Origin: Pantanalinema sp.
Lineage (GTDB): Bacteria; Cyanobacteriota; Sericytochromatia; S15B-MN24; UBA4093
Length of the DNA stretch: 51,194 bases
Direction: 5' to 3'
Assembly: GCA_036704125.1 (NCBI GenBank)
Contig: DATNQI010000079.1
Coordinates: forward strand, 1 to 51,194
A program made the position numbers and the translations under genes. Shown piece after piece: positions 1 to 11,995 of this stretch (position 1 is its first letter; each line of letters starts with the position of its first letter). Under the pieces are notes generated by a model, which was not told the DNA's origin, made no database searches, and worked only from the letters and a program-made list of their open reading frames with translations.

Positions 1-1095
1 ATGGCCGGGATCAACATCGGTCGCAACTTGAACAACAGCCCGGACATCCGCACCGGCGCGCAGGGCGGTGCCCAGAGCGCGCCCCGCGTCACGGGCCCCA
101 CCGCCCCCAACCTGGAACAGGCCGCGAAAGAGCGCCCCTCGGGCCCCCAGTACTTCGGCTACCACAACGACGCCTCGATCGCCGCCCGCCTCGCCCAGCA
201 GGGCATCGCCCCCAACCCCGTCAACCTGCGCCTCGCTCAGCAGATGCTGCGCTACGGCATCCCGCTCGGAGCCGACGCCCTCAACCAGTTCCGCCAGATG
301 TGGCAGAGCATGGGCAGCGCCTCGCTGGTCGAGCTGGAGGCGCTTCTGGCCCTCTTCACCCAGGGCATCGAGGCCGCCCCCCAGAACGTCGCCGCCATGA
401 CCCAGCTGCTCAACGGCGGCCCCATGAGCCACCTGCTCGCCCAGCTCACCATGGCCCTCAAGAACCAGACCACCCTCGGCCCCCAGCTCCAGGAGATCAA
501 GGCCCAGCTCAACGCCTTCTGGAAGCTCGGCACCAGCCCCGACCAGCTCGGAGCCGATCTCGCTCAGTTCCAGCAGCTCAAGCAGCAGCTCTCCCGGATG
601 CTCGCGGGCCTCGACCCGACCAAGGTCCCCGGCGAGCTCATCGGTGAGCTCTCGCAGCTCAAGGACTTGCTCCACGCCCAGCAGATGCTGCTCAAGAACC
701 CCCAGAACTCGGTCTACGTGCCCTTCTACCAGTGGCGCGACCAGCAGCCCATGCCGGGCGAGCTGCTGGTCGAGACCGAGGACAACCCCAGCTTCCAGGC
801 GGCGGGCTTCGCCCAGGTCACCCTCGCGGTCGAGACCCGCAACATGGGCCGCATGACCGTCAGTTTCACCACCGTCCGCGGCCACCTGACGGTCAAGCTC
901 GAGGTCCAGGACATCGCGACCAAGCAGTTCCTCGAGCGGGGGCTGCCCGACCTGCGCCACCGACTCACCTTCCGCACGCCCTACCAGGTCGCCACCATCA
1001 TGTGCGTGCCCACGGGCCAGGAGCGCGCGACCAGCGTCCTCTTGCCCAAGCGACGCGACCTGCGCAAGCTCGGCCGCGCGATCGGGGTGATCTAG
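1..1095 (+). CDS. FliK-like flagellar hook-length control protein (C-terminal domain)
   Basis: A 364-residue protein with no signal peptide. The first 110 residues or so are Pro/Gln/Ala-rich and probably disordered, and the middle (about 110-235) is helical and Leu/Gln-rich. The last 100 residues resemble the FliK C-terminal domain: a beta-rich stretch with MGRMTVSF and LTVKLEV, then FLERGLPDLRHRL, matching the usual GR-x-V ... LE-x-x-LP-x-LR pattern. FliK measures the hook and makes FlhB switch export specificity. It lies immediately before an FlhB-C-like gene and the flagellar rod genes, which fits that job. The window begins exactly at this ATG, so no ribosome site is visible and a longer N-terminus cannot be excluded. 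Overall similarity is weak and the call rests on the C-terminal pattern plus context. Confidence 0.5.
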   Translation: MAGINIGRNLNNSPDIRTGAQGGAQSAPRVTGPTAPNLEQAAKERPSGPQYFGYHNDASIAARLAQQGIAPNPVNLRLAQQMLRYGIPLGADALNQFRQMWQSMGSASLVELEALLALFTQGIEAAPQNVAAMTQLLNGGPMSHLLAQLTMALKNQTTLGPQLQEIKAQLNAFWKLGTSPDQLGADLAQFQQLKQQLSRMLAGLDPTKVPGELIGELSQLKDLLHAQQMLLKNPQNSVYVPFYQWRDQQPMPGELLVETEDNPSFQAAGFAQVTLAVETRNMGRMTVSFTTVRGHLTVKLEVQDIATKQFLERGLPDLRHRLTFRTPYQVATIMCVPTGQERATSVLLPKRRDLRKLGRAIGVI

Positions 1096-1096
1096 A

Positions 1097-1339
1097 ATGG
1101 CCGACCAGGAGCGCAAGCGACTCACCAGGCTCCCCGCAAGGACCGGCCAGGCCCCCGACCAGGCGCCGGTGACCGGCAGCCCGAAGCCCACCCACCCCGC
1201 CGTCGCGGACATCCTTCAGGGGCTCGCCGTCCAGCAGGCCGTACCCACCGAGCTGATGCCCGCCATCTCGGAGATGCTGACCTACATCTACCAGATGGAC
1301 GACGTGGCCGAGAAGCGCAAGCAGATCCAGAGGAGGTAG
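1097..1339 (+). CDS. Short FlhB C-terminal-domain-like protein
   Basis: An 80-residue soluble protein starting one base after the preceding stop. Its last 35 residues, with VPTELMPAISEMLTYIYQMD, match the end of the FlhB cytoplasmic domain (typically IPxELYxAVAEVLAYVYxL). Before that, PKPTHPAVA recalls the FlhB autocleavage region NPTHxAVA, but Asn is Lys and about 50 residues of the normal domain are missing, so self-cleavage is not expected. Free FlhB-C-like proteins occur in other bacteria beside FliK-like genes (the Bacillus ylqG/ylqH pair is the comparison I have in mind). A role in export switching is inference. The ribosome site of the next gene (GAGGAGG) lies inside its last codons. 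It could also be an unrelated small protein. Confidence 0.42.
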   Translation: MADQERKRLTRLPARTGQAPDQAPVTGSPKPTHPAVADILQGLAVQQAVPTELMPAISEMLTYIYQMDDVAEKRKQIQRR

Positions 1340-1342
1340 CCC

Positions 1343-2080
1343 ATGCTCAGAGGAATCTACTCGGCCGCCACGGGCATGATGTTCCAGATGCAGCAGGTCA
1401 ACACCATCGCCAACAACCTCGCCAACGTCGAGACCAACGGCTACAAGCGCAAGGAGCTGATGGGCTCCTCGTTCGGCGATCTGCTGGTCCAGTTCACCGA
1501 CCAGGCCCCGGGCACCGAGAACGTCATCGGCACCGGGGTCAAGACCGACGGCATCTCCCGCTACGAGACCCCGGGCAACCTGGTCCAGACGAGCAACCGC
1601 TTCAACGTGGCGATCGCAAGCACCGGCTACTTCCTCACCCGGGGCGCCGACGGCGTCGAGAAGGTCACCCGCGACGGCGACTTCCAGCCCGACACCAACG
1701 GCCGCCTCGCCACCCGCTCGGGCGACCTGGTGCTCGGCACCGACCGCCGACCGATCTTGCTCACCGGCGACCTCCACAACATGCAGATCGCCGAGGACGG
1801 CCGGATCACGGTGGGCGATCAGCAACTGGGCACCCTCATGGTCGTCGAGCCGCCCAAGATCGCCCTCGAGACCCAGTTCCCCCTCGCCCCCCCGGGCCTG
1901 CCCCCTTCGACCAACGTCTCGATCAAGCAGGGCTTCCTCGAGCACTCCAACGTCAACGTCGTCACCGAGATGGTCTCGATGATGACCGCCAACCGGGCCT
2001 ACGGCTTCGGCCAGAAGGTCATCAGCGCCCACGACCAGATCCTCCAGAAGGCCGCCAACGACCTCGGCCGCATCTCGTAA
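1343..2080 (+). CDS. flgF: Flagellar basal-body rod protein FlgF
   Basis: A 245-residue member of the FlgF/FlgG rod-hook family. It has the N-terminal rod motif (GIYSAATGMMFQMQQVNTIA, NNLANVETNGYKR), a central domain with the FNVAIASTGYFLTRG signature and the conserved C-terminal helix (LEHSNVNVVTEMVSMM). Such proteins leave through the flagellar type III exporter without a Sec signal and polymerise into the rod. The ATG follows GAGGAGG at good distance. Called FlgF because a second, more canonical paralogue (flgG) follows 21 bases later. The order FlgF-FlgG is standard. The region before the C-terminus is Pro-rich (LAPPGLPP), which is mildly unusual. Confidence 0.85.
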   Translation: MLRGIYSAATGMMFQMQQVNTIANNLANVETNGYKRKELMGSSFGDLLVQFTDQAPGTENVIGTGVKTDGISRYETPGNLVQTSNRFNVAIASTGYFLTRGADGVEKVTRDGDFQPDTNGRLATRSGDLVLGTDRRPILLTGDLHNMQIAEDGRITVGDQQLGTLMVVEPPKIALETQFPLAPPGLPPSTNVSIKQGFLEHSNVNVVTEMVSMMTANRAYGFGQKVISAHDQILQKAANDLGRIS

Positions 2081-2101: not shown

Positions 2102-2869
2102 ATGATCCACGGCATTTGGACCGCAGCGACCGGCATGCAGGCGCAGCAGATGCGAATCGACGTCATCGCCAACAACCTGTCGAACGTGAACACCACGTCC
2201 TACAAGCGCTCGGCCGTCGACTTCCAGGACCTCTTGTACCAGACCATCAACCAGCCCGGCACCGACAACGCGGGCGTCCAGATCGGCCTCGGCGTGCGGC
2301 CGGTGGCGGTGACCAAGATCTACGACCAGGGCAACCTCCAGGTCACCAACAACCCCCTCGACCTGGCCATCGACGGCGACGGCTTCTTCGCCGTGACCCA
2401 GATCAACGGGCAGGTGGCCTACACCCGCGACGGCTCCTTCAAGCTGGACGCCACCGGGCGCCTGGTGACCTCGACCGGCCAGCCCCTGGATCCCCCCATC
2501 ACCATCGCCCCCGGGACCTCCAACCTCTACATCCGCAAGGACGGCGCGGTCTTCGGCACCCCGCCCAACGCCACCGAGCAGCAGATCATCGGCCAGATCC
2601 AGCTGACCCAGTTCACCAACCCGGCGGGACTCCAGGCCATCGGCAACAACCTCGCGGTCGAGACCTCGGCCTCGGGACCGGCCCGGCAAGGGCAGCCGGC
2701 CATTGAAGGTTACGGCGGTTTGCGTCAAGGTGCTCTTGAGGCCTCGAACGTCGAGCTGGTGCGCGAGATGGTCATGATGATCGCGACCCAGAAGGCTTAC
2801 GACACGTCCTCGAAGGCCATCACCGTCTCCGACAAGATGATGGAGACCGCCAACCAGCTCCAGCGCTAG
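2102..2869 (+). CDS. flgG: Flagellar distal rod protein FlgG
   Basis: A 255-residue distal rod protein of normal length. N-terminal motif GIWTAATGMQAQQMRIDVIA followed by NNLSNVNTTSYKR, central LDLAIDGDGFFAV and TRDGSFKLDATGRLV, and C-terminal LEASNVELVREMVMMI are all FlgG hallmarks. It forms the distal rod that passes through the P and L rings, whose genes flgI and flgH lie just downstream. The start ATG is preceded by AAAGGAG. It is exported by the flagellar type III apparatus and has no Sec signal. Confidence 0.93.
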   Translation: MIHGIWTAATGMQAQQMRIDVIANNLSNVNTTSYKRSAVDFQDLLYQTINQPGTDNAGVQIGLGVRPVAVTKIYDQGNLQVTNNPLDLAIDGDGFFAVTQINGQVAYTRDGSFKLDATGRLVTSTGQPLDPPITIAPGTSNLYIRKDGAVFGTPPNATEQQIIGQIQLTQFTNPAGLQAIGNNLAVETSASGPARQGQPAIEGYGGLRQGALEASNVELVREMVMMIATQKAYDTSSKAITVSDKMMETANQLQR

Positions 2870-2885: not shown

Positions 2886-3629
2886 TTGGCCCGTTTCGTC
2901 GCTATCCTGTCCCGCGTCGCGGCGCTCTGCGCCGTCTGGGGGTGCCTGCTGCCCTCGGCGGCCTGGGCCGCGCCCGTCCGCGAGGCGGACCTGCTCGGCT
3001 TCATCGGCGAGCAGGTCGCCCTGCGCCAGCAAGCCGATCCCAAGCGGGTCGAGGTCCACTGGAACGGCCCGAGCCTCGCCTCGCTTATGGGCAGCAGGCC
3101 CCTGCCCGAAGGCACCGCGCGCTTCGCGATCGTCGGCACGCCGCGCCTGCTGGGCCGAACGGCCGTACCGATTTCGATCGAGATCGACGGCAAGAAGCTC
3201 AAGACCGTGTACCCGCGCGTCGAGATCAAGGTATGGCAGGACGTGTGGGTCTCGACCGAGACCCTGCACCGGGGCCGCCTCTTCGCACCGTCCCTGGGCC
3301 GCGCCGAGCGCCGCAGCCTCGAGACGGTGATGGGCGCGCCCGCAACCTCGCTCTCCACCCTCGAGGGGGCCGTGGTCAAGCGCGAGGTGCCCGCCGGGGC
3401 GGTGCTGGTCAACGAGATGTTCGACCTGCCCGCCCTGGTCAAGACCGGCAAGGAGGTCACGGTGAAGCTGGTCAGCGGCGAGCTGGTCATCGTGACGCGC
3501 GCGCAGGCGGTGGCCGACGGGACCATGGGCCAGCTGGTCCGGGTGTTCAACCCCGACTCCCGCAAGGACTACGTGGCGCGGGTGACAGGAATCGACCAGG
3601 TCGAGGTTCGCCTCGAGGAAGCCCCCTAG
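2886..3629 (+). CDS. flgA: Flagellar P-ring assembly chaperone FlgA
   Basis: A 247-residue Sec-exported protein. The first 28 residues are a signal peptide ending near AAWA. The C-terminal half is the SAF/FlgA domain: EVPAGAVLVNEMF, then VTVKLVSGELVIVTRAQA and the terminal VRVFNPDSRKDYVARVTG, typical of FlgA. FlgA is the periplasmic chaperone for P-ring subunit FlgI, encoded two genes downstream. Translation starts at TTG, supported by GGGAGG six bases upstream. The N-terminal half is weakly conserved, as usual for the family. Confidence 0.82.
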   Translation: MARFVAILSRVAALCAVWGCLLPSAAWAAPVREADLLGFIGEQVALRQQADPKRVEVHWNGPSLASLMGSRPLPEGTARFAIVGTPRLLGRTAVPISIEIDGKKLKTVYPRVEIKVWQDVWVSTETLHRGRLFAPSLGRAERRSLETVMGAPATSLSTLEGAVVKREVPAGAVLVNEMFDLPALVKTGKEVTVKLVSGELVIVTRAQAVADGTMGQLVRVFNPDSRKDYVARVTGIDQVEVRLEEAP

Positions 3630-3649
3630 GGCAAGGAAAAGGGTTCGAC

Positions 3650-4258
3650 ATGCGACGGATGGTTTTAGCCCTGACGGCTGCCCTGCTGCTTGCGCCCGGC
3701 GCGCTCGCGCCGGCCATGGCCGACAGCCTCTACACCGAGGACTCGGGCGGCTTCCTCACCGATCGCCTGGGCGATCGCCGCTCCACCCTGGGTCCCGGAG
3801 CGCTGGTGACGGTGCTCGTCACCGAGAACATGGTCGCAAGCTCGGGGGCGACCACCAAGGCCTCCAAGCAGGCCCGGACCCAGGCCAGCTGGGACTTCGG
3901 CTCCTTGATCGGGGGCGCCGGAGGCAAGGGCACCTGGGACATGAACGGCAAGAACGACTTCCAGGGCGACGGCGTGACCAAGCGCGCCGACACCATCACC
4001 CTCCTGGTAGCGGCCACCATCCAGGAGATCCTGCCCGACGGCAGCCTGCGCCTGGCAGGTGAGAAGAAGCTCCGGGTCAACGACGAGGAGAGCACCGTCG
4101 TCATCTCGGGCATCGTGCGCCCCTACGACATCGACGGCGCCAACCAGATCCAGTCCACCAAGGTCGCCAACCTCAAGGTCGACTTCCGCGGGGCCGGCTC
4201 GGCCTCGTCCAAGGCGACCCCCGGCATCCTATCCCGCCTGTTCAACTGGCTGTTCTAA
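3650..4258 (+). CDS. flgH: Flagellar L-ring protein FlgH, without a lipobox
   Basis: A 202-residue outer-membrane L-ring protein. The conserved FlgH core is clear: SLYTEDSGGFLTDR, GALVTVLVTE, then LLVAATIQEILPDGSLRLAGEK and VVISGIVRPYDID. Normal FlgH proteins are lipoproteins anchored through an N-terminal Cys. Here the signal peptide (residues 1-24, ending AMAD) has no Cys, and there is none in the whole protein, so it should be cut by signal peptidase I. The ATG at 3650 follows AAGGAAAAG. The frame stays open far upstream over flgA, but no FlgH similarity is seen there. It lies 12 bases before flgI. Confidence 0.9.
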   Translation: MRRMVLALTAALLLAPGALAPAMADSLYTEDSGGFLTDRLGDRRSTLGPGALVTVLVTENMVASSGATTKASKQARTQASWDFGSLIGGAGGKGTWDMNGKNDFQGDGVTKRADTITLLVAATIQEILPDGSLRLAGEKKLRVNDEESTVVISGIVRPYDIDGANQIQSTKVANLKVDFRGAGSASSKATPGILSRLFNWLF

Positions 4259-4270
4259 GCAGGAAGCCTC

Positions 4271-5395
4271 ATGCGAAAGATCCTCGTCCTCATCCTCGCG
4301 ATCGCCCTCCCCCTCGGCCTGTGCGCCCCAAGCGGCGCCCAGGCCCTCAGGGGCGGCACGCCCCTGCGCCTCAAGGACATCGCCAGCATCCAGGGGGCCA
4401 CCGACAACCAGCTGCAGGGCATGGGGCTCGTGATCGGCCTCAATCAGTCCGGCGACACCGTCTCGACCGGCTTCACCGACCGGGTGCTCAAGAACTTCAT
4501 CATGAACGCCGGGATCTACATCCCCCAGGAGCGGATCCGCGTCAAGAACGTGGCGGTCGTGGCGGTGCGGGCCAACCTGCCCCCCTTCGTGAAGCCCGGC
4601 CAGAAGATCGACGTGACGGTCGCCTCGATCGGCGACGCCAAGAGCCTCGCCGACGGCGTCCTGATCGGCGGCGAGCTGCGCGGGCCCGACGGCAAGGTCT
4701 ACGCCACCGCCGAGGGCGCGCTCTCGACCGGCGGCTTCGGCGTCGAGGCCAACGGCAGCCAGGTCCGCAAGAACCAGACGCTGGTGGCCCGCATCCCGAA
4801 CGGCGGCATCGTCCAGCGCGAGGTGCCCGTCACCATGCTGGACGCCAACGGCTTCATGTACGTCAATCTGGCGCAGCCCGACTTCGTGACCGCCTCGCGC
4901 GTCGCGAGCACCATCACCAAGTCCCAGCTCGGCATGGCCCAGGCGGTGGACGCCGGCACCGTCCGGGTCTACGTCAACACCTCGTACCGGGACAACCTGG
5001 TGGACCTCATCGCCCGCATCGAGCAGGTCGCGGTGCTGCCGGACGCGATCGCCAAGGTCGTGATCGACGAGCGCAGCGGCACGGTGATCCTGGGATCCGG
5101 CGTCCGGATCGGCGCCGTGGCGGTCTCGCACGGCAACCTGATCGTGCGGGTGGACACCAAGCAGACCGTCTCCCAGCCCAATGCCCTCTCGGGCGGCGGC
5201 ACCGCCGTCACCACCGAGTCGACCGTCACCGCGGACGAGCAGAAGGCCAAGACCGTGGTCTTCGAGTCCGGAACGACCCTCGGCCAGCTGGTGCGGGCCC
5301 TCAACGCCCTGGGCACCACCCCGCGCGACATGATCTCCATCCTGCAGGCGGTCAAGGCCGCCGGCGCCCTCAACGCCCAGCTCGAGATCATCTAG
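4271..5395 (+). CDS. flgI: Flagellar P-ring protein FlgI
   Basis: A 374-residue periplasmic P-ring subunit of usual length. A signal peptide (residues 1-25, ending SGAQA) precedes the family core: RLKDIASIQGATDNQLQGMG, LVIGLNQSGDTV, KNVAVVAVRANLPPF and IDVTVASIGDAKSLADGVL. The C-terminus LVRALNALGTTPRDMISILQ is diagnostic. It polymerises around the rod in the peptidoglycan layer with help from FlgA. The start has AGGAAGC upstream. FlgI together with FlgH shows a full diderm flagellar bushing. Confidence 0.95.
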   Translation: MRKILVLILAIALPLGLCAPSGAQALRGGTPLRLKDIASIQGATDNQLQGMGLVIGLNQSGDTVSTGFTDRVLKNFIMNAGIYIPQERIRVKNVAVVAVRANLPPFVKPGQKIDVTVASIGDAKSLADGVLIGGELRGPDGKVYATAEGALSTGGFGVEANGSQVRKNQTLVARIPNGGIVQREVPVTMLDANGFMYVNLAQPDFVTASRVASTITKSQLGMAQAVDAGTVRVYVNTSYRDNLVDLIARIEQVAVLPDAIAKVVIDERSGTVILGSGVRIGAVAVSHGNLIVRVDTKQTVSQPNALSGGGTAVTTESTVTADEQKAKTVVFESGTTLGQLVRALNALGTTPRDMISILQAVKAAGALNAQLEII

Positions 5396-5407: not shown

Positions 5408-5755
5408 ATGGACATCAACGGCTTGCCGCAACCGCCTCGCCTGCCCTTCGCGCCGATCTCCGGAGTAGCTGGCGAGGGGAGGTTACCTTCGGCCTCCGGC
5501 GAGGTACAACAGAATGAAACGAGGGAAGCGGCGGAAAGCTTCGCGAGCTACCTCTATGCCCAGGTGTTCTCCCAGATGCGGCCCGAAGACTCCGGCGAGG
5601 AGGGCGGGATGTTCTCCGGCGAGCAGGCGGGCATGTTCATGGACTTCTTCGATCAGGCGCTCGGCAAGCACTACGCCACGAACGGCGGGAACGCCCTGGT
5701 TGAGCAACTGGTGGCACAGATGACGCGCCAGCAAGGGCAGAGCGCCCGAGAGTAA
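5408..5755 (+). CDS. flgJ: FlgJ-type rod-binding protein without muramidase domain
   Basis: A 115-residue protein holding only the rod-binding domain of FlgJ. Residues 35-110 match it: AAESFASYLYAQVFSQMRP, a Gly/Glu turn, then AGMFMDFFDQALGKHYA. In gammaproteobacteria FlgJ also carries a C-terminal glucosaminidase that opens peptidoglycan for the rod. That part is absent, so wall opening must come from another enzyme. It starts 12 bases after flgI with AGGAGAAAGG upstream, consistent with one transcript. Short FlgJ proteins are common outside gammaproteobacteria. Confidence 0.82.
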   Translation: MDINGLPQPPRLPFAPISGVAGEGRLPSASGEVQQNETREAAESFASYLYAQVFSQMRPEDSGEEGGMFSGEQAGMFMDFFDQALGKHYATNGGNALVEQLVAQMTRQQGQSARE

Positions 5756-5770
5756 GACAGTGGAGTGGTC

Positions 5771-6496
5771 GTGTTAAAAAAGCCTGTCTCGCTAGAGGGG
5801 AAGCGCAGCCTCGACAACGCCGCCATCAAGCAGTACATGCCGATGGTCCGGGCGATCGCGCGCCGCATCTCGACCAAGCTGCCACGTCACTACGACATGG
5901 AGGACCTGATCTCCGACGGCGTGATGGGCCTGATGGCGGCCTCCGAGCGCTTCGATCCCGAGCGGGGCGTCAAGTTCGAGACCTTCGCGACCTACTACAT
6001 CAAGGGCGCCATCCTCGACAACCTGCCCAAGCTGCCCACCGTTCCCAAGAGCCAGCGGGTGCAGGCGGCCATGGCCCAGGCCGAGGAGGAGGCCATCCTC
6101 AACGAGGGCGAGCAGGCCGAATCCGACGCCACCGTCCTGGTCAACCAGATCCAGCAGCTGACCTACTCGTACATCCTCTCGCTGGACGCCCCCCAGGGAT
6201 CCGACGGCGAGGAGAGCTTCTCTTTGCTCAACCAGCTGGGCGCCGCCGACACCATCCAGCACGACATGGAGCTCGAGGAGCTGCAGCAGCTCCTGCGCCT
6301 GACCATCGAGCAGCTGCCCGTGCAGGAGCGCACCACCCTGCGCTGCTACTACTTCCAGAAGATGTCCTTCAACGAGATCGGCCAGAAGCTGGGCCTCTCC
6401 GAGTCGTGGGTGAGTCGCATCCACCGCCGCGCCCTGGAACAGCTGCGCCAGAAGCTCGGCAAGAAGAAGAGCCTCGACGACTTTATCAGCTGGTAG
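5771..6496 (+). CDS. fliA: Flagellar sigma factor FliA (sigma-28/WhiG group)
   Basis: A 241-residue sigma-70 family protein with regions 2, 3 and 4. Region 2 contains DLISDGVMGLMAASERFDP and GVKFETFATYYIKGAILDNL. Region 4 contains LPVQERTTLRCYYFQKMSF and the helix-turn-helix EIGQKLGLSESWVSRIHRRA. The FliA/WhiG group drives late flagellar genes. I start it at GTG 5771 because GGAG ends five bases upstream; an in-frame GTG at 5765 would overlap that site. The gene sits inside the structural cluster, between flgJ and flgB, rather than near chemotaxis or flhF genes. No anti-sigma factor gene flgM is visible nearby. Confidence 0.87.
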   Translation: MLKKPVSLEGKRSLDNAAIKQYMPMVRAIARRISTKLPRHYDMEDLISDGVMGLMAASERFDPERGVKFETFATYYIKGAILDNLPKLPTVPKSQRVQAAMAQAEEEAILNEGEQAESDATVLVNQIQQLTYSYILSLDAPQGSDGEESFSLLNQLGAADTIQHDMELEELQQLLRLTIEQLPVQERTTLRCYYFQKMSFNEIGQKLGLSESWVSRIHRRALEQLRQKLGKKKSLDDFISW

Positions 6497-6592: not shown

Positions 6593-6678
6593 CTCGCTCA
6601 TGTACATAACGCACGGAAGCGCCCGGTCGCTTGCGCCATACTGAGACTGGGGAACGCTCCCCGAACGGAGGTAGCCAC

Positions 6679-7098
6679 GTGATCAGCCGTGAGGTCCGCG
6701 GCCTCGAGCGCGCCATGGACGGCCTGGCCGCCCGCTTCGCCGCCCAGGCCAACAACATCGCCAACATCAACACGCCGCAGTACGCGCGGCAGGACGTGCG
6801 CTTCGAGGACGCCCTGGTCTCGGCCATGGACTCCGAGCCCGCCCCCGGCGTGGACCAGGCGCAGGATCCGTTCACCAACCTGTTCGGCTCGGCGGCGCGC
6901 CCCACCGACGACATGCTCGAGACCTTCAACCCCTCGATCACCGTCGCCAAGGGCCAGGGCATGCGCCGCGACGGCAACGGGGTCTCCCTCGAGCACGAGA
7001 TGAGCCAGATGGTCCAGTCGGTCGAGAAGTACAACACCCTCGCCACCCAGATCGCCACCCAGTACCGCACCTTCAAGTTCATCACCGACCAGAAGTAG
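6679..7098 (+). CDS. flgB: Flagellar proximal rod protein FlgB
   Basis: A 139-residue rod protein. The rod motif reads LERAMDGLAARFAAQANNIA followed by NINTPQYARQDVRFEDAL. The C-terminal helix VSLEHEMSQMVQSVEKYNTL is typical of FlgB. GTG at 6679 is chosen because GGAGGT lies six bases upstream. The frame extends further up (a TTG at 6631) but with no ribosome site or homology. It begins the flgB-flgC-fliE-fliF-flhA block and is exported by the type III apparatus. Confidence 0.9.
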   Translation: MISREVRGLERAMDGLAARFAAQANNIANINTPQYARQDVRFEDALVSAMDSEPAPGVDQAQDPFTNLFGSAARPTDDMLETFNPSITVAKGQGMRRDGNGVSLEHEMSQMVQSVEKYNTLATQIATQYRTFKFITDQK

Positions 7099-7112: not shown

Positions 7113-7520
7113 ATGAGCCTTCAAAAGGTATTCGACACCGGCGCGAGCGCCATGACCGCCAACCGCTTCTGGCTGGAGGCCATCTCCAACAACATGGCCA
7201 ACGCCAACGTGACGCGCACCGCCGAGGGCGGGCCCTACCAGCGCCAGATCCCGGTGTTCCAGCAGATCCTCGACGAGGAGACGGGCCTGGGCAAGGGGGT
7301 GCAGGTCTCGGGCACCGTGCGCGACGCGACGCCGGGCGAGCTGGTCTACAAGCCGGGCCACCCCGACGCGGACGCCAACGGCTTCGTGCGGATGCCCAAC
7401 GTCAACATCGTCACCGAGATGGTGGACATGATCACCGTCCAGCGCGCCTTCGACGCCAACGTCACCGCCTTCAACGCGGGCAAGAACATGCACCAGAAGG
7501 CCCTCGAGATCGGCCGATAA
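7113..7520 (+). CDS. flgC: Flagellar proximal rod protein FlgC
   Basis: A 135-residue rod protein of usual FlgC length. Key blocks are ANRFWLEAISNNMANANVTR, GPYQRQIPVF, PGHPDADANGFVRMPNVN and VTEMVDMITVQRAFDANVTA. It forms the proximal rod with FlgB, FlgF and FliE. GTAGGAGGAG just before the ATG is a strong ribosome site. It lies 14 bases after flgB. Confidence 0.93.
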   Translation: MSLQKVFDTGASAMTANRFWLEAISNNMANANVTRTAEGGPYQRQIPVFQQILDEETGLGKGVQVSGTVRDATPGELVYKPGHPDADANGFVRMPNVNIVTEMVDMITVQRAFDANVTAFNAGKNMHQKALEIGR

Positions 7521-7552: not shown

Positions 7553-7939
7553 ATGCTCGTCAACCAGAACTTCATGCCCGGCCTCAACCGCCAGGCGCCC
7601 GGCATCGGCGGGGGCTTCCCCGAGTTCCCCTCGCTCGACTTCTCGATCGACACCAACCCCGAGTTCGGCGACGCGGCGATCGACGGCTTCGGCCAGAAGG
7701 CGGACGCCAACAACGGCCGCAGCTTCGCCGACCTCTTGACCGAGGCCATCGACGGGGTCTCGGCCCAGGACAACAAGGCCGTGCAGACCGGCCTCGACTT
7801 CGCCCTCGGGCGCAACGACGTGGACGTCCACCAGGTGATGATCGAGCAGGCCAAGGCCGAATCGCAGCTCCACCTGATGTCCGCCGTCACCAACAAGGTC
7901 GCGTCCAGCTACCAGACCTTGATGAACATGCAGATCTGA
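7553..7939 (+). CDS. fliE: MS-ring/rod junction protein FliE
   Basis: A 128-residue protein whose C-terminal half is FliE: SFADLLTEAIDGVSAQDNKA, then DVDVHQVMIEQAKAESQLHL and VASSYQTLMNMQI. FliE joins the MS ring (FliF) to the rod (FlgB) and activates export. The first 55 residues are Gly/Pro/Asp-rich and poorly conserved, making this somewhat longer than typical FliE (about 100-110 residues). The ribosome site upstream is weak. It lies directly before fliF, the common order. Confidence 0.88.
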   Translation: MLVNQNFMPGLNRQAPGIGGGFPEFPSLDFSIDTNPEFGDAAIDGFGQKADANNGRSFADLLTEAIDGVSAQDNKAVQTGLDFALGRNDVDVHQVMIEQAKAESQLHLMSAVTNKVASSYQTLMNMQI

Positions 7940-7961: not shown

Positions 7962-9872
7962 ATGCTCGACTTTCTCAACCGCTTCCCCCCACCGGTCCGC
8001 ATCGGCATCATGGCCGGCGTGCCGGTCTTGCTGATCGTGATCACCCTGTTCATCGGCATGGCGATCGGCGGAGGCGGCAAGAAGCAACCCACCGAAGATC
8101 AGCTCAACAAGAACGACGTGATCCTCTACCGCCGCATGTCGCAGCTGGCCGCCGGCGAGGCCGCCGCCAAGCTCGAGGAGGAGCGCATCCCCTTCAAGCT
8201 GGTCGAGGACGGAACGGCCATCTCGGTGCCCAAGGACAAGTCCGACAAGGCCCGCGTGGCACTCGCCGCGGCCGGCCTCCCCAAGGACGGCGATCCCGGC
8301 TTCAGCCTCTTCGACAAGAGCGACTTCATCTCCACCGACTTCGACAAGAAGATCAAGCTGCTGCGCGCCATGAACGGCGAGATCAAGCGCCTGGTCAAGC
8401 AGGTGGACGGCGTCGAGGACGCGGGCGCCATGGTCACCATGCCGGAGGACAGCCTCTTCCAGACCGAGAAGAAGCCCGTCACCGCAGCGGTCATGGTCAA
8501 GATGCAGCCCAAGCGATCGCTGACCCCCAGCCAGGTCGAGGGCCTCACCCACCTGATCGCAAGCTCCGTGCCGGGCCTCTTGACCGACAACGTCACCATC
8601 ACCGACGACCTGGGCAACCTTTTGACCTCGGGGATGGAGGCCAACGCCGGCAACAAGGAGGACCGCATGATCTCGCGGGTCCTCAACATGCAGATGGGCC
8701 TCCAGCGCCAGAAGGAGCAGGAGATCGAGCAGAAGCTCACCAGCCTCCTCGACAAGGTCGTGGGCTCGGGCAAGGCCGTCGTGCGCGTCAGCCTGGAGCT
8801 GGACTTCAACAAGCGCCTGGAGCGCAACGTCCTCAAGGCCGCGGTCACCAACGGCAACGGCGAGAGCGTGCCTCTGACCAAGAGCGAGCAGACCGAGACC
8901 GTGCAGGGCGGCGGCGAGGGCGGCGCACCCGGCACCGCCGCCAACGTGCCCACCTACCCCGCGATCCCCTCGACGCCGGGCGGCTCCAAGGAGGTCACCA
9001 AGAAGAACCTCAAGGAGCAGCCCGCCTTCAACGAGCAGACCCAGCTGATCCAGCCGTCGAGCGGCAACATCAAGCGCATGTCGATCGCGGTGCTGGTCCC
9101 CGACACCCTCAAGCAGGAGAGCGCCGACAGGCTCCGCATCATCGTCGCGACCGCGGCGGGCGCGGACGCCGCCCGCCGCGACCAGGTCTCGGTCGAGCGG
9201 GTCCGGTTCGACTCGAGCACCTACGACGACCTCAAGAAGCAGTTCGAGGAGGAGCAGACCGCCGAGAAGACGGGCAAGAAGGGCCAGGCCGTCTCGTGGG
9301 CCATTGTCTGGTGGATCGGCGGGGCGCTCCTGCTTATCTTCCTCCTGCTCGCGCTCCTGCGCCGCGCCACCCGCAAGGAGGCCAACCCCCTCGACACCCT
9401 CACCGCCTCTCTGGGCGGCGAGGCCGAGGCGCTGCCCATGTTCGACCAGCAGGCGCTGGGCGGCTTCGACCCCAACGCCTTCCCCGGGCTCGACATGGGC
9501 CAGGGCGGCTTCGAGCAGCCGGGGCTCGATCAGTTCGGAGGCCAGCAGGGCTTCGCCGACGCCGGCTACCCCCAGCAGGGCTACGCCGACGCGGGCGCCC
9601 AGGCCCCCCAGGCGGGCGGCGCCTTCGACTTCATGTACGAGGTCTCGCCGGATGCCGCGGCCGCGGCCTTCGAGGGAGAGCGGCCGGCGACCATCGCCGG
9701 CGTGCTCGCGACCCTGGACCCGAGCTACGCCGAGCAGGTCCTCCAGTACCTGGATCCCGGCATCCAGGAGGACGTCTTCAACCGGGTCAACCAGGGGGCG
9801 ACCCTGCCCTCCATGACCGCGCGGATGGCCGGCCAGAACCTCAAGCGCAAGCTCGGCGCGAACGTCGGGTAG
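7962..9872 (+). CDS. fliF: Flagellar MS-ring protein FliF fused to a FliG middle-domain-like segment
   Basis: A 636-residue inner-membrane ring protein. Membrane segment 1 is at about residues 12-34, the ring-building motifs follow (LYRRMSQLAAGEAAAKLEEE, GFSLFDKSDFISTDFDKKI, RAMNGEIKRLV), and membrane segment 2 is at about 444-466. After it comes a 70-residue Gly/Gln/Asp-rich linker. The last 80 residues (from 555, DNA 9624) read FDFMYEVSPDAAAAAF, then ERPATIAGVLATLDPSYAEQ, EDVFNRV and LKRKLG. That matches the middle ARM-like domain of FliG (FDFLxxVDPxxL, EHPQTIAxILSYLDPxxAAEVL, LEEKL). The FliM-binding EHPQ motif is ERPA here. No separate fliG lies next to it, as it normally would. It starts 22 bases after fliE. 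Confidence 0.95.
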   Translation: MLDFLNRFPPPVRIGIMAGVPVLLIVITLFIGMAIGGGGKKQPTEDQLNKNDVILYRRMSQLAAGEAAAKLEEERIPFKLVEDGTAISVPKDKSDKARVALAAAGLPKDGDPGFSLFDKSDFISTDFDKKIKLLRAMNGEIKRLVKQVDGVEDAGAMVTMPEDSLFQTEKKPVTAAVMVKMQPKRSLTPSQVEGLTHLIASSVPGLLTDNVTITDDLGNLLTSGMEANAGNKEDRMISRVLNMQMGLQRQKEQEIEQKLTSLLDKVVGSGKAVVRVSLELDFNKRLERNVLKAAVTNGNGESVPLTKSEQTETVQGGGEGGAPGTAANVPTYPAIPSTPGGSKEVTKKNLKEQPAFNEQTQLIQPSSGNIKRMSIAVLVPDTLKQESADRLRIIVATAAGADAARRDQVSVERVRFDSSTYDDLKKQFEEEQTAEKTGKKGQAVSWAIVWWIGGALLLIFLLLALLRRATRKEANPLDTLTASLGGEAEALPMFDQQALGGFDPNAFPGLDMGQGGFEQPGLDQFGGQQGFADAGYPQQGYADAGAQAPQAGGAFDFMYEVSPDAAAAAFEGERPATIAGVLATLDPSYAEQVLQYLDPGIQEDVFNRVNQGATLPSMTARMAGQNLKRKLGANVG

Positions 9873-9877
9873 CCTAG

Positions 9878-11995
9878 ATGGTCGGCGCGATGGGAGCAGG
9901 CAAGGGGGTTCCGATCCGGGACTTCGTGATCGCGGGCCTCATGGTCGCGATCCTCGGCATCCTGTTCCTGCCGATCCCGGTCTGGATGCTGGACGTGCTG
10001 ATCGTCCTGAACATCGTCATGTCGATCATCATCGTCTTCGTGGCGCTGTACATCGTCAAGCCGCTGGAGTTCGCGAGCTTCCCGTCCTTGCTGCTGCTGA
10101 CGGCCCTCTATCGCCTGGCCCTTTCGGTGGCCACCTCGCGCTCGATCCTGCTTCACGCCGAGGCCGGCAACGTCATCCACACCATGGCCGAGTTCGTCAT
10201 GGGCGGCAACTACATCGTCGGCATCATCATCTTCATCATCCTGATCATCGTCAACTTCATCGTCATCACCGAGGGCGCCAAGCGCATCGCCGAGGTCGCG
10301 GCCCGCTTCACCCTGGACGCCATGCCCGGTAAGCAGATGTCCATCGACGCGGACCTCGCGGCCGGCCTGATCGACGGCAACCAGGCCAAGCAGCGGCGCG
10401 AGGACCTGGTCCGCGAGGCCAACTTCTTCGGGTCCATGGACGGCGCCAACAAGTTCGTGAAGGGCGACGTCATCGCCTCGATCATCCTGATCGTCGTCAA
10501 CATCGTGGGCGGCATCCTGATCGGCATCCTCATGAAGAAGATGGACGTGATGGAGGCCCTGTCCCGGTACGCCATCCTCACGGTCGGTGACGGCCTGGTG
10601 GGCCTCATCCCGGGCATCCTGATCTCGATCTCGGCGGGTCTGGTCAGCTCCCGGTCGGCCTCGGACCAGAACCTCGCGGCCGACATCAAGCAGCAGGTCT
10701 TCTCCAACCCCAAGAGCATGGGCGTGGCCGCGGCCGTCACCTTCCTCATCGCCTGGGTGCCGGGCTTCCCCAAGATCTTCTTCATCCCCATCGCGCTGGG
10801 GCTGGGGGCGGCGGCCTTCCTCGCCATGCGCAAGAACATGATGCCCGCGGGCGGTGCGGGCGACGACTTCGGCATGCCCATGGACGACATGATGGACGAC
10901 TATGCCCCCGAGTCGGAGGAGGACCTCAAGAACCCCGAGAACGTCATGAAGATGCTGGGCGTCCCGCCCCTGACCCTGGAGCTCGGGCTGGACCTGGTGC
11001 CCCTGGTGGACCCGGGCCTCGGCGGCGAGCTGATGGACCGGGTGGTGCCCATGCGCGTCAACATCGCGCTGGACCTGGGCTTCGTCATGCCGGGCATCCA
11101 GTTCAAGGACAACCTCAACCTGCGCCCCAACGCCTACCAGCTTTTGGTCAAGGGCAACGTCGTCGCCACCGGCGAGCTCCTGGTCGGCTACATGCTCGCC
11201 ATCCAGCAGAGCACCAGCGACACCAGCCAGGAGCTCGTGGGCTTCCCCACCACCGATCCCGCCTTCGGCAAGCCCGCGGTGTGGGTGGCGGGCGCCGAGG
11301 CCCAGCGCGCTGCGCAGCTCGGCTACCTGATCCAGGACCCCACCAACGTGCTGACCGCCCACATGGAGCACACGGTCCGCTCGTACGCACACGAGATCCT
11401 CAGCCGCGAGGAGGTCCAGATGATGCTGAACCGCCTCAAGGAGAAGGCCCCGGTCACGGTCAAGGACCTGGTGCCCGAGATCCTGTCGCTGTCCGAGGTC
11501 CAGCGCGTCCTCCAGGGCCTGATCCGCGAGGGCGTCAGCATCCGGGACCTCGCGACCATCCTGGAGCGCCTCGCCGACTACGGCAAGATGACCAAGGACA
11601 TCTTCCTGCTCAACGAGATGATCCGCCAGCAGCTCTCGCGCCAGATCTGCGCCAGCCTCGCGACCGAGGAGGGCGTGATCGAGGTCGTGACGCTGGATCC
11701 GGGCGTGGAGAACACGATCCAGGGCTCGATCACCAACACCCCCCTGGGCCCGCAGGCGGCGGTCAACCCGCAGATCATGCAGCTCATCCTGGCGCGCCTC
11801 GCCGCCGTCCAGCAGGAGGCGGTCGCCCGCGGCTCCAACCCCGTGCTGCTCACCAACCCGACCATCCGGCCGCACGTCAAGGGCCTCATCGAGCGTAACT
11901 TCCCGACCATGGCCGTCATCTCGTACGCCGAGATCAACGCCAAGTTCAAGGTGCAGTCGGTCGGCCAGGTCTCGATCGCGGTTGGCGTCAGCTGA
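9878..11995 (+). CDS. flhA: Flagellar type III export gate protein FlhA
   Basis: A 705-residue export-gate protein of usual length. About eight membrane segments occupy residues 15-320. The FHIPEP signature region reads PSLLLLTALYRLALSVATSR, with DAMPGKQMSIDADLAAGLID and RREDLVREANFFGSMDGANK following. The cytoplasmic domain (about 360-705) docks substrate-chaperone complexes and includes HMEHTVRSYAHEILSREEVQ. It starts five bases after the fliF stop; an in-frame ATG at 9890 is possible. The export ATPase genes fliH and fliI and the gate genes fliPQR are not in the window, so the export set is split across the genome. Confidence 0.97.
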   Translation: MVGAMGAGKGVPIRDFVIAGLMVAILGILFLPIPVWMLDVLIVLNIVMSIIIVFVALYIVKPLEFASFPSLLLLTALYRLALSVATSRSILLHAEAGNVIHTMAEFVMGGNYIVGIIIFIILIIVNFIVITEGAKRIAEVAARFTLDAMPGKQMSIDADLAAGLIDGNQAKQRREDLVREANFFGSMDGANKFVKGDVIASIILIVVNIVGGILIGILMKKMDVMEALSRYAILTVGDGLVGLIPGILISISAGLVSSRSASDQNLAADIKQQVFSNPKSMGVAAAVTFLIAWVPGFPKIFFIPIALGLGAAAFLAMRKNMMPAGGAGDDFGMPMDDMMDDYAPESEEDLKNPENVMKMLGVPPLTLELGLDLVPLVDPGLGGELMDRVVPMRVNIALDLGFVMPGIQFKDNLNLRPNAYQLLVKGNVVATGELLVGYMLAIQQSTSDTSQELVGFPTTDPAFGKPAVWVAGAEAQRAAQLGYLIQDPTNVLTAHMEHTVRSYAHEILSREEVQMMLNRLKEKAPVTVKDLVPEILSLSEVQRVLQGLIREGVSIRDLATILERLADYGKMTKDIFLLNEMIRQQLSRQICASLATEEGVIEVVTLDPGVENTIQGSITNTPLGPQAAVNPQIMQLILARLAAVQQEAVARGSNPVLLTNPTIRPHVKGLIERNFPTMAVISYAEINAKFKVQSVGQVSIAVGVS

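Follow-up and report, generated by a model that had tools for sequence, protein, structure and literature searches.

A FliG middle domain at the C-terminus of FliF in a second flagellar-type gene set of the Sericytochromatia

The stretch of DNA examined here (the window; 51,194 nucleotides, contig DATNQI010000079.1 of Pantanalinema sp., class Sericytochromatia) carries an operon for a second flagellar-type system, in which the MS-ring gene fliF2 was found to encode a natural fusion of FliF to the middle domain of FliG. In the canonical flagellar motor FliG links three parts: its N-terminal domain (FliG_N) is held by the tail of FliF, its middle domain (FliG_M) bears FliM, and its C-terminal domain (FliG_C) contacts the stator. 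It is confirmed that FliF2 instead ends in a FliG middle domain with the ARM_M fold, standing in place of the FliF tail that grips FliG_N. We put at about 0.58 the probability that this tail is the MS ring's own docking site for the SpoA ring of a flagellar export machine that has no FliG and probably does not rotate.

The FliG middle-domain tail of FliF2

The open frame of fliF2 encodes a protein of 636 amino acids (aa) that was identified as FliF with Pfam and NCBIfam (TIGR00206, 4.4e-71; YscJ_FliF, 6.4e-53; YscJ_FliF_C, 5.8e-24), the NCBIfam fliF match ending at residue 456. The features of the gene are as follows.

7962..9872 (+), fliF2, MS-ring protein (Pfam/NCBIfam; orthologues in 16 genomes)
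9297..9368 (+), second transmembrane helix, about residues 446-469 (sequence)
9375..9623 (+), Gly/Ala/Gln-rich linker of 83 residues, residues 472-554 (sequence)
9624..9869 (+), FliG middle-domain tail, residues 555-636 (Pfam, profile and structure comparisons)
9678..9692 (+), ERPAT, counterpart of the FliM-binding EHPQT of FliG (alignment)

Behind YscJ_FliF and YscJ_FliF_C, Pfam placed a C-terminal FliG_M (PF14841; residues 567-634, E-value 3.4e-9) at 37-39 bits, the curated cut-off being 25 bits, and found no FliG_N or FliG_C. Searched alone, the tail matched FliG_M with an E-value of 1.7e-9 and was also matched by the NCBIfam fliG model (TIGR00207, 9.5e-8), while a PDB search returned FliG middle domains as top matches. 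A sequence-only reading of the window had proposed this fusion and had named a profile search beforehand as its possible refutation; that search found FliG and not the ordinary FliF C-terminal helices, and the Pfam, profile-profile and fold comparisons agree. The start that it gave for the domain, position 9624, is exact (FDFMYEV, at residue 555). It had also described a linker, which is present and, at 83 residues, a little longer than the 70 given; it contains 17 Gly, 14 Ala and 11 Gln.

The tails of 16 FliF2 orthologues were aligned, and each of the 16, run singly, matched FliG_M (best 1.6e-15). Searched against the PDB, a profile of these tails found the FliG of Thermotoga maritima (3.5e-14). 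It also matched the middle domain of the FliG of the same class at 98.6% (hhalign, E-value 8.7e-16), as against only 1.3% for the canonical FliF tail of the class, in line with the proposal that this is not the usual FliG-gripping tail. An AlphaFold2 model of the tail alone adopted the FliG_M fold (predicted local distance difference test score, pLDDT, 92.4) and superposed on residues 106-191 of Aquifex aeolicus FliG with a Z-score of 11.8 and a root-mean-square deviation (rmsd) of 2.0 over 84 residues; this structure and Helicobacter pylori FliG in its complex with FliM (4fq0), for which the comparison gave a template-modelling (TM) score of 0.77 and an rmsd of 2.0, were the closest.

Across the class the tails share 35-61% identity and 12 invariant columns. 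The EHPQ motif of FliG and the GGXG motif of FliM have been tied to the contact between these two proteins (PMC7355467). EHPQ was found in none of the 16 FliF2 tails, which carry ERPAT (residues 573-577 in the window, the change to ERPA having been recognized in the sequence-only reading), EKPQS or ERLPT at this position; EHPQT is kept in all 12 of the canonical FliG proteins (FliG1) read.

Because of the E-values, the matches of all 16 orthologues and the profile controls, the similarity to FliG_M lies far beyond chance, which is thereby ruled out as its source. An MgtE_N/MotE-like domain was a weaker candidate both in sequence (0.003 versus 8e-10) and in structure (Z 4-7 versus 11.8). A frameshift or assembly artefact was ruled out, as the architecture recurs in 16 genomes and the guanine-cytosine (GC) content by codon position of the tail is normal for its coding frame (0.70/0.44/0.96).

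Distribution and age of the fusion

The tailed FliF (frames of 611-657 aa, 133-155 bits) was identified in 16 of 18 Sericytochromatia-type genomes; the relatives that bear names are Candidatus Sericytochromatia and Tanganyikabacteria. A scan of 386 genomes of the phylum found no tailed FliF outside the class; the other matches were FliG-like by frame length and score, mostly about 340 aa and 40-53 bits. This phylum scan is the better test, since the scan of named genomes used one narrow peptide pattern, and the lack of matches beyond the class carries little weight there. In the Vampirovibrionia-like family f9 the FliF tail differs and is without FliG_M.

In the tree, FliF2 and the canonical FliF (FliF1) form separate clades, the FliF2 clade being supported at 99/97 and its branching following the families. 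As the clade branches in the way that the families do, the tail dates back at least to the origin of the class, and the FliF2 system appears, on these sequences, to be ancient in the Sericytochromatia.

Gene content of the second system

The operon upstream and downstream of fliF2 in the window comprises the following genes.

1..1095 (+), fliK2 (Flg_hook)
1097..1339 (+), small protein; counterparts elsewhere resemble the FlhB cytosolic domain, this copy being without a Pfam match
1343..2080 (+), flgF2
2102..2869 (+), flgG2
2886..3629 (+), flgA (ChapFlgA)
3677..4258 (+), flgH, L-ring, start uncertain within the open frame 2942-4258 (PF02107, 3.6e-37)
4271..5395 (+), flgI, P-ring (PF02119, 1.9e-116)
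5408..5755 (+), flgJ2-like rod-binding protein (PF10135)
5765..6496 (+), fliA-like sigma factor (Sigma70_r2/r4)
6631..7098 (+), flgB2, start uncertain (homologous to the other flgB of the genome)
7113..7520 (+), flgC2 (Flg_bbr_C; homologous to the other flgC of the genome)
7553..7939 (+), fliE2 (PF02049, 5e-21)
9878..11995 (+), flhA2, 705 aa, second full FlhA of the genome (PF00771)

This order (fliK2, small FlhB_C-like gene, flgF, flgG, flgA, flgH, flgI, flgJ, fliA, flgB, flgC, fliE, fliF2, flhA2) holds throughout the class, although some genomes show insertions or breaks. As had been noted from the sequence, flhA and not fliG follows fliF2, and no fliG was found in an operon of this type in any genome read.

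A companion cluster was identified with the order flgD2-flgE2-fliM2-mSpoA-fliN2-fliO/P-fliQ-fliR, in which flgD2-flgE2 adjoin fliM2 only in some families and in which, again, no fliG was found in the genomes read. FliM2, present in 17 of the 18 genomes, is a FliM homologue (PF02154 at 1.2e-9 in the copy of family f7; SpoA in both copies tested) that, aligned with FliM1, lacks both the N-terminal CheY-binding peptide and the GGXG loop. Between fliM2 and fliN2 lies mSpoA, kept across the class (L057:7613-9001, orthologues in L134-L149), which encodes a protein of 462-700 aa whose N-terminal part holds several predicted membrane helices and whose C-terminal part is a SpoA domain. With a modest model (pLDDT 70), a Foldseek search returned nothing that matched the membrane part confidently, and a known fold may have escaped it. 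In the second system of the genome to which the window belongs, and in some relatives, fliO and fliP appear to form one open frame (L057:6102-7286).

Canonical flagellar genes of the same genome

Most of these genomes also carry a separate canonical fliF-fliG system. In the genome of the window, a search for fliG located a canonical three-domain FliG with EHPQT on contig C69, that is, in this other system. The set on C69 consists of flgB, flgC, fliE, fliF1, fliG, fliH, fliI, fliJ, fliK, flgD and flgE, together with motA, fliL, fliM1, fliY, fliQ, fliR, flhB and flhA1, and a further group was found on contig C82 (flgF, flgG, flgK, flgL, fliW, csrA, flhF, flhG). Names were assigned with Pfam for fliF1, fliG, fliM1, fliY, flhA1 and the rod/hook family, and by reading and gene order for the others. 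The FliG-binding tail is kept in all 12 FliF1 proteins read. The genome was found to have one flagellin and FlgL, and one FlgK, which is placed with the canonical system. A third FlhA-like gene (L181:7422-8408, contig C85; 329 aa) matches the FlhA family over positions 322-536 alone and is without the membrane part.

FliG, stator and flagellin genes across the class

A whole-genome search of the window's genome with PF01706 and PF14841 returned, besides FliF2, only the proteins of contigs C69 and C13 above the cut-off, which rules out an overlooked FliG in the second system; FliG_C was confined to FliG1 (C69) and the C13 fusion protein. Genomes of the class in which a canonical FliG was found have a single one, and additional FliG-like proteins show a patchy distribution. 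Some genomes of families f5 and f6 carry diverged second FliG proteins with three domains (L156:6124-7128, L158:7346-8419, L159:7149-8321; Pfam on two), which adjoin no recognized flagellar gene.

The C13 protein (L008:10392-12587) joins a domain resembling RBM3 of FliF and one membrane helix to three FliG domains (FliG_C, 1.5e-14; FliG_M, 1.1e-7; FliG_N weak). Fusions of this type were seen in six genomes of families f1 and f4 (relatives in L151-L155), followed on the 3' side by genes for a tetratricopeptide repeat (TPR) protein and an FlgO-like protein, plus their own motA and motB where read. No rod, hook or export genes were found nearby, and to judge by its gene content the locus looks like a rotor and stator without a flagellum. 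Short proteins matching only the C-terminal ring domain of FliF were also observed among unrelated neighbours (L175:13917-14774, L182:4159-4959); the match of this kind in genome G006 runs through a TAG stop.

No motAB was found in the cluster of the second system; orphan motA-motB pairs occur elsewhere in the genomes, away from flagellar genes (L171, L172, L173, L174, L175, L176, L177, L178, L179). In family f7 (G015, 87% complete; G017, 74% complete) no match was found to FliG_C, flagellin (Flagellin_N)/FlgL or FliF1, and the genes present are those for FliF2 and/or FliM2, SpoA and FliP/Q.

Proposed role of the tail

FliF2 would form the MS ring of a second flagellar-type export system without a FliG of its own, and the FliG_M tail, on its flexible 83-residue linker, would receive a SpoA ring made of FliM2, mSpoA and FliN2. 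One covalent link would thus replace both the joint between the FliF tail and FliG_N and that between FliG_M and FliM. Torque would be dispensed with, a static rod and hook apparatus for secretion being more likely than a rotating or switching motor. Rotation and switching are probably absent, because the gene sets are without the FliG_C torque domain and FliM2 is without the CheY-binding peptide. The sequence-only reading had left two options, a C ring (cytoplasmic ring) attached to the built-in domain or stacking of this domain with a separate FliG. The former is favoured because none of the genomes read has a fliG linked to the system, because the system has its dedicated SpoA cluster and because one family is apparently without FliG; the latter is less favoured, and conceivable where a FliG exists.

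Several observations weigh against a receptor in a non-rotating machine. Orphan motA-motB pairs are present in genomes of most families, f7 included, so that a rotor of some kind is conceivable. The two f3 genomes, unlike the other families, have flagellin-like genes just after or near flhA2 (L069:4498-6462; G003:C61:37445-37759). The contact between FliM and FliG is altered on both sides, EHPQ having become ERPA or ERLP and GGXG being lost in FliM2, which makes it uncertain that the tail binds at the classical site. FliH/I/J and FlhB of the second system were not located. Finally, that family f7 seems to keep the second system alone is suggestive, and its genomes are incomplete.

As a first alternative, the second system could be a flagellum that rotates, the FliF2 tail stacking with a FliG acting in trans (FliG1, the C13 fusion or one of the diverged extra FliG proteins), either as an added FliG_M layer or through swapped ARM_M/ARM_C contacts. 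FliG_M domains do polymerize with their neighbours in known C rings, FliG1 is present in most of these genomes and extra FliG-like proteins in several, and the MotAB pairs and the f3 flagellin-like genes would fit such a motor. This alternative is nevertheless considered unlikely, as no FliG is linked to the second system anywhere, the extra FliG proteins are patchy in contrast to a tail that 16 of 18 genomes have, no FliG_C was found in f7, and FliF2 is without the tail that binds FliG_N. The C13 fusion in particular is unlikely to be an obligate partner of FliF2, since clear cases of it are limited to f1 and f4, whereas the tail occurs class-wide.

The tail might also recruit another part, such as mSpoA or a FliH-like ATPase component, and so serve as a tether of the export platform and not as a C-ring receptor. 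The loss of FliM-contact motifs on both sides and the conservation of mSpoA beside fliM2 would be in keeping with this, but the FliG_M fold is fully kept and the best established partners of FliG_M are FliM and FliG, which makes such a tether rather improbable. That the tail is a functionless relic of a spontaneous fliF-fliG fusion is very hard to credit given 35-61% identity with invariant columns, a kept fold and a clade as deep as the class, even though adjacent fliF and fliG genes can fuse and fused Salmonella strains still swim (PMC7355467).

Comparison with known systems

The canonical FliF-FliG pair on C69 belongs to the same genome, and the body of its FliF is homologous to that of FliF2; FliF1 differs in its end, which consists of the helices that bind FliG_N, and its gene is followed by that of a FliG with three domains and EHPQT. 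This intact system in the same cell provides a built-in control. The second system bears on how a rotary flagellum may become a non-rotary secretion device, and on what holds the cytoplasmic ring once FliG is gone. The change appears to be half-preserved here: of FliG, the middle domain persists as a part of FliF, and the domains for FliF binding and torque have disappeared.

With non-flagellar type III secretion injectisomes the second system shares a SpoA ring without FliG, the export gate proteins and a cluster in which no stator genes were found. It differs from them in having FlgH/FlgI, FlgF/G/E/D, FliE and a full FliF, and its architecture is flagellar. Tentatively, and with the odds somewhat against it, these genes may describe a complete FliG-less flagellar-type machine, its MS-ring FliG_M docking a clade-specific SpoA platform, as a third branch in addition to rotary flagella and injectisomes.

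In Salmonella fliF-fliG fusion mutants and an engineered Vibrio FliFG, the MS ring is likewise covalently joined to FliG sequence, and the full-frame fusion assembles C rings (PMC7355467, PMC11481574). These fusions keep both FliG_M and the FliG_C torque domain, whereas FliF2 has only FliG_M and is natural and fixed.

The fusion type as such has a precedent. The FliF of the Chlamydiaceae, a non-flagellated group bearing injectisomes, was described in 2016 (Bergeron) as a fusion with FliG_M, for which SctQ was proposed as the contact partner (PMC4768692). In both cases the FliF tail is homologous to the M region of FliG, without FliG_N or FliG_C, and the suggested partner is a SpoA protein. Going by the published description (PMC4768692), the chlamydial FliF is shortened and accompanied by few flagellar genes. 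FliF2, by contrast, has its full length and belongs to a second gene set that is nearly complete, with genes for rod, L/P ring and hook as well as a SpoA cluster of its own. A literature search, with most subscription papers outside its reach, found no paper describing the fusion of the Sericytochromatia. The novelty of the present case lies in a FliF of full length, in an almost complete set of paralogous flagellar genes, in the SpoA protein anchored in the membrane and in an age that spans the class. Besides Chlamydia, the Sericytochromatia would form a second lineage to pair a FliF-FliG_M fusion with the loss of FliG, and the proposition that FliG_M is the minimal adaptor between MS ring and SpoA therefore becomes testable.
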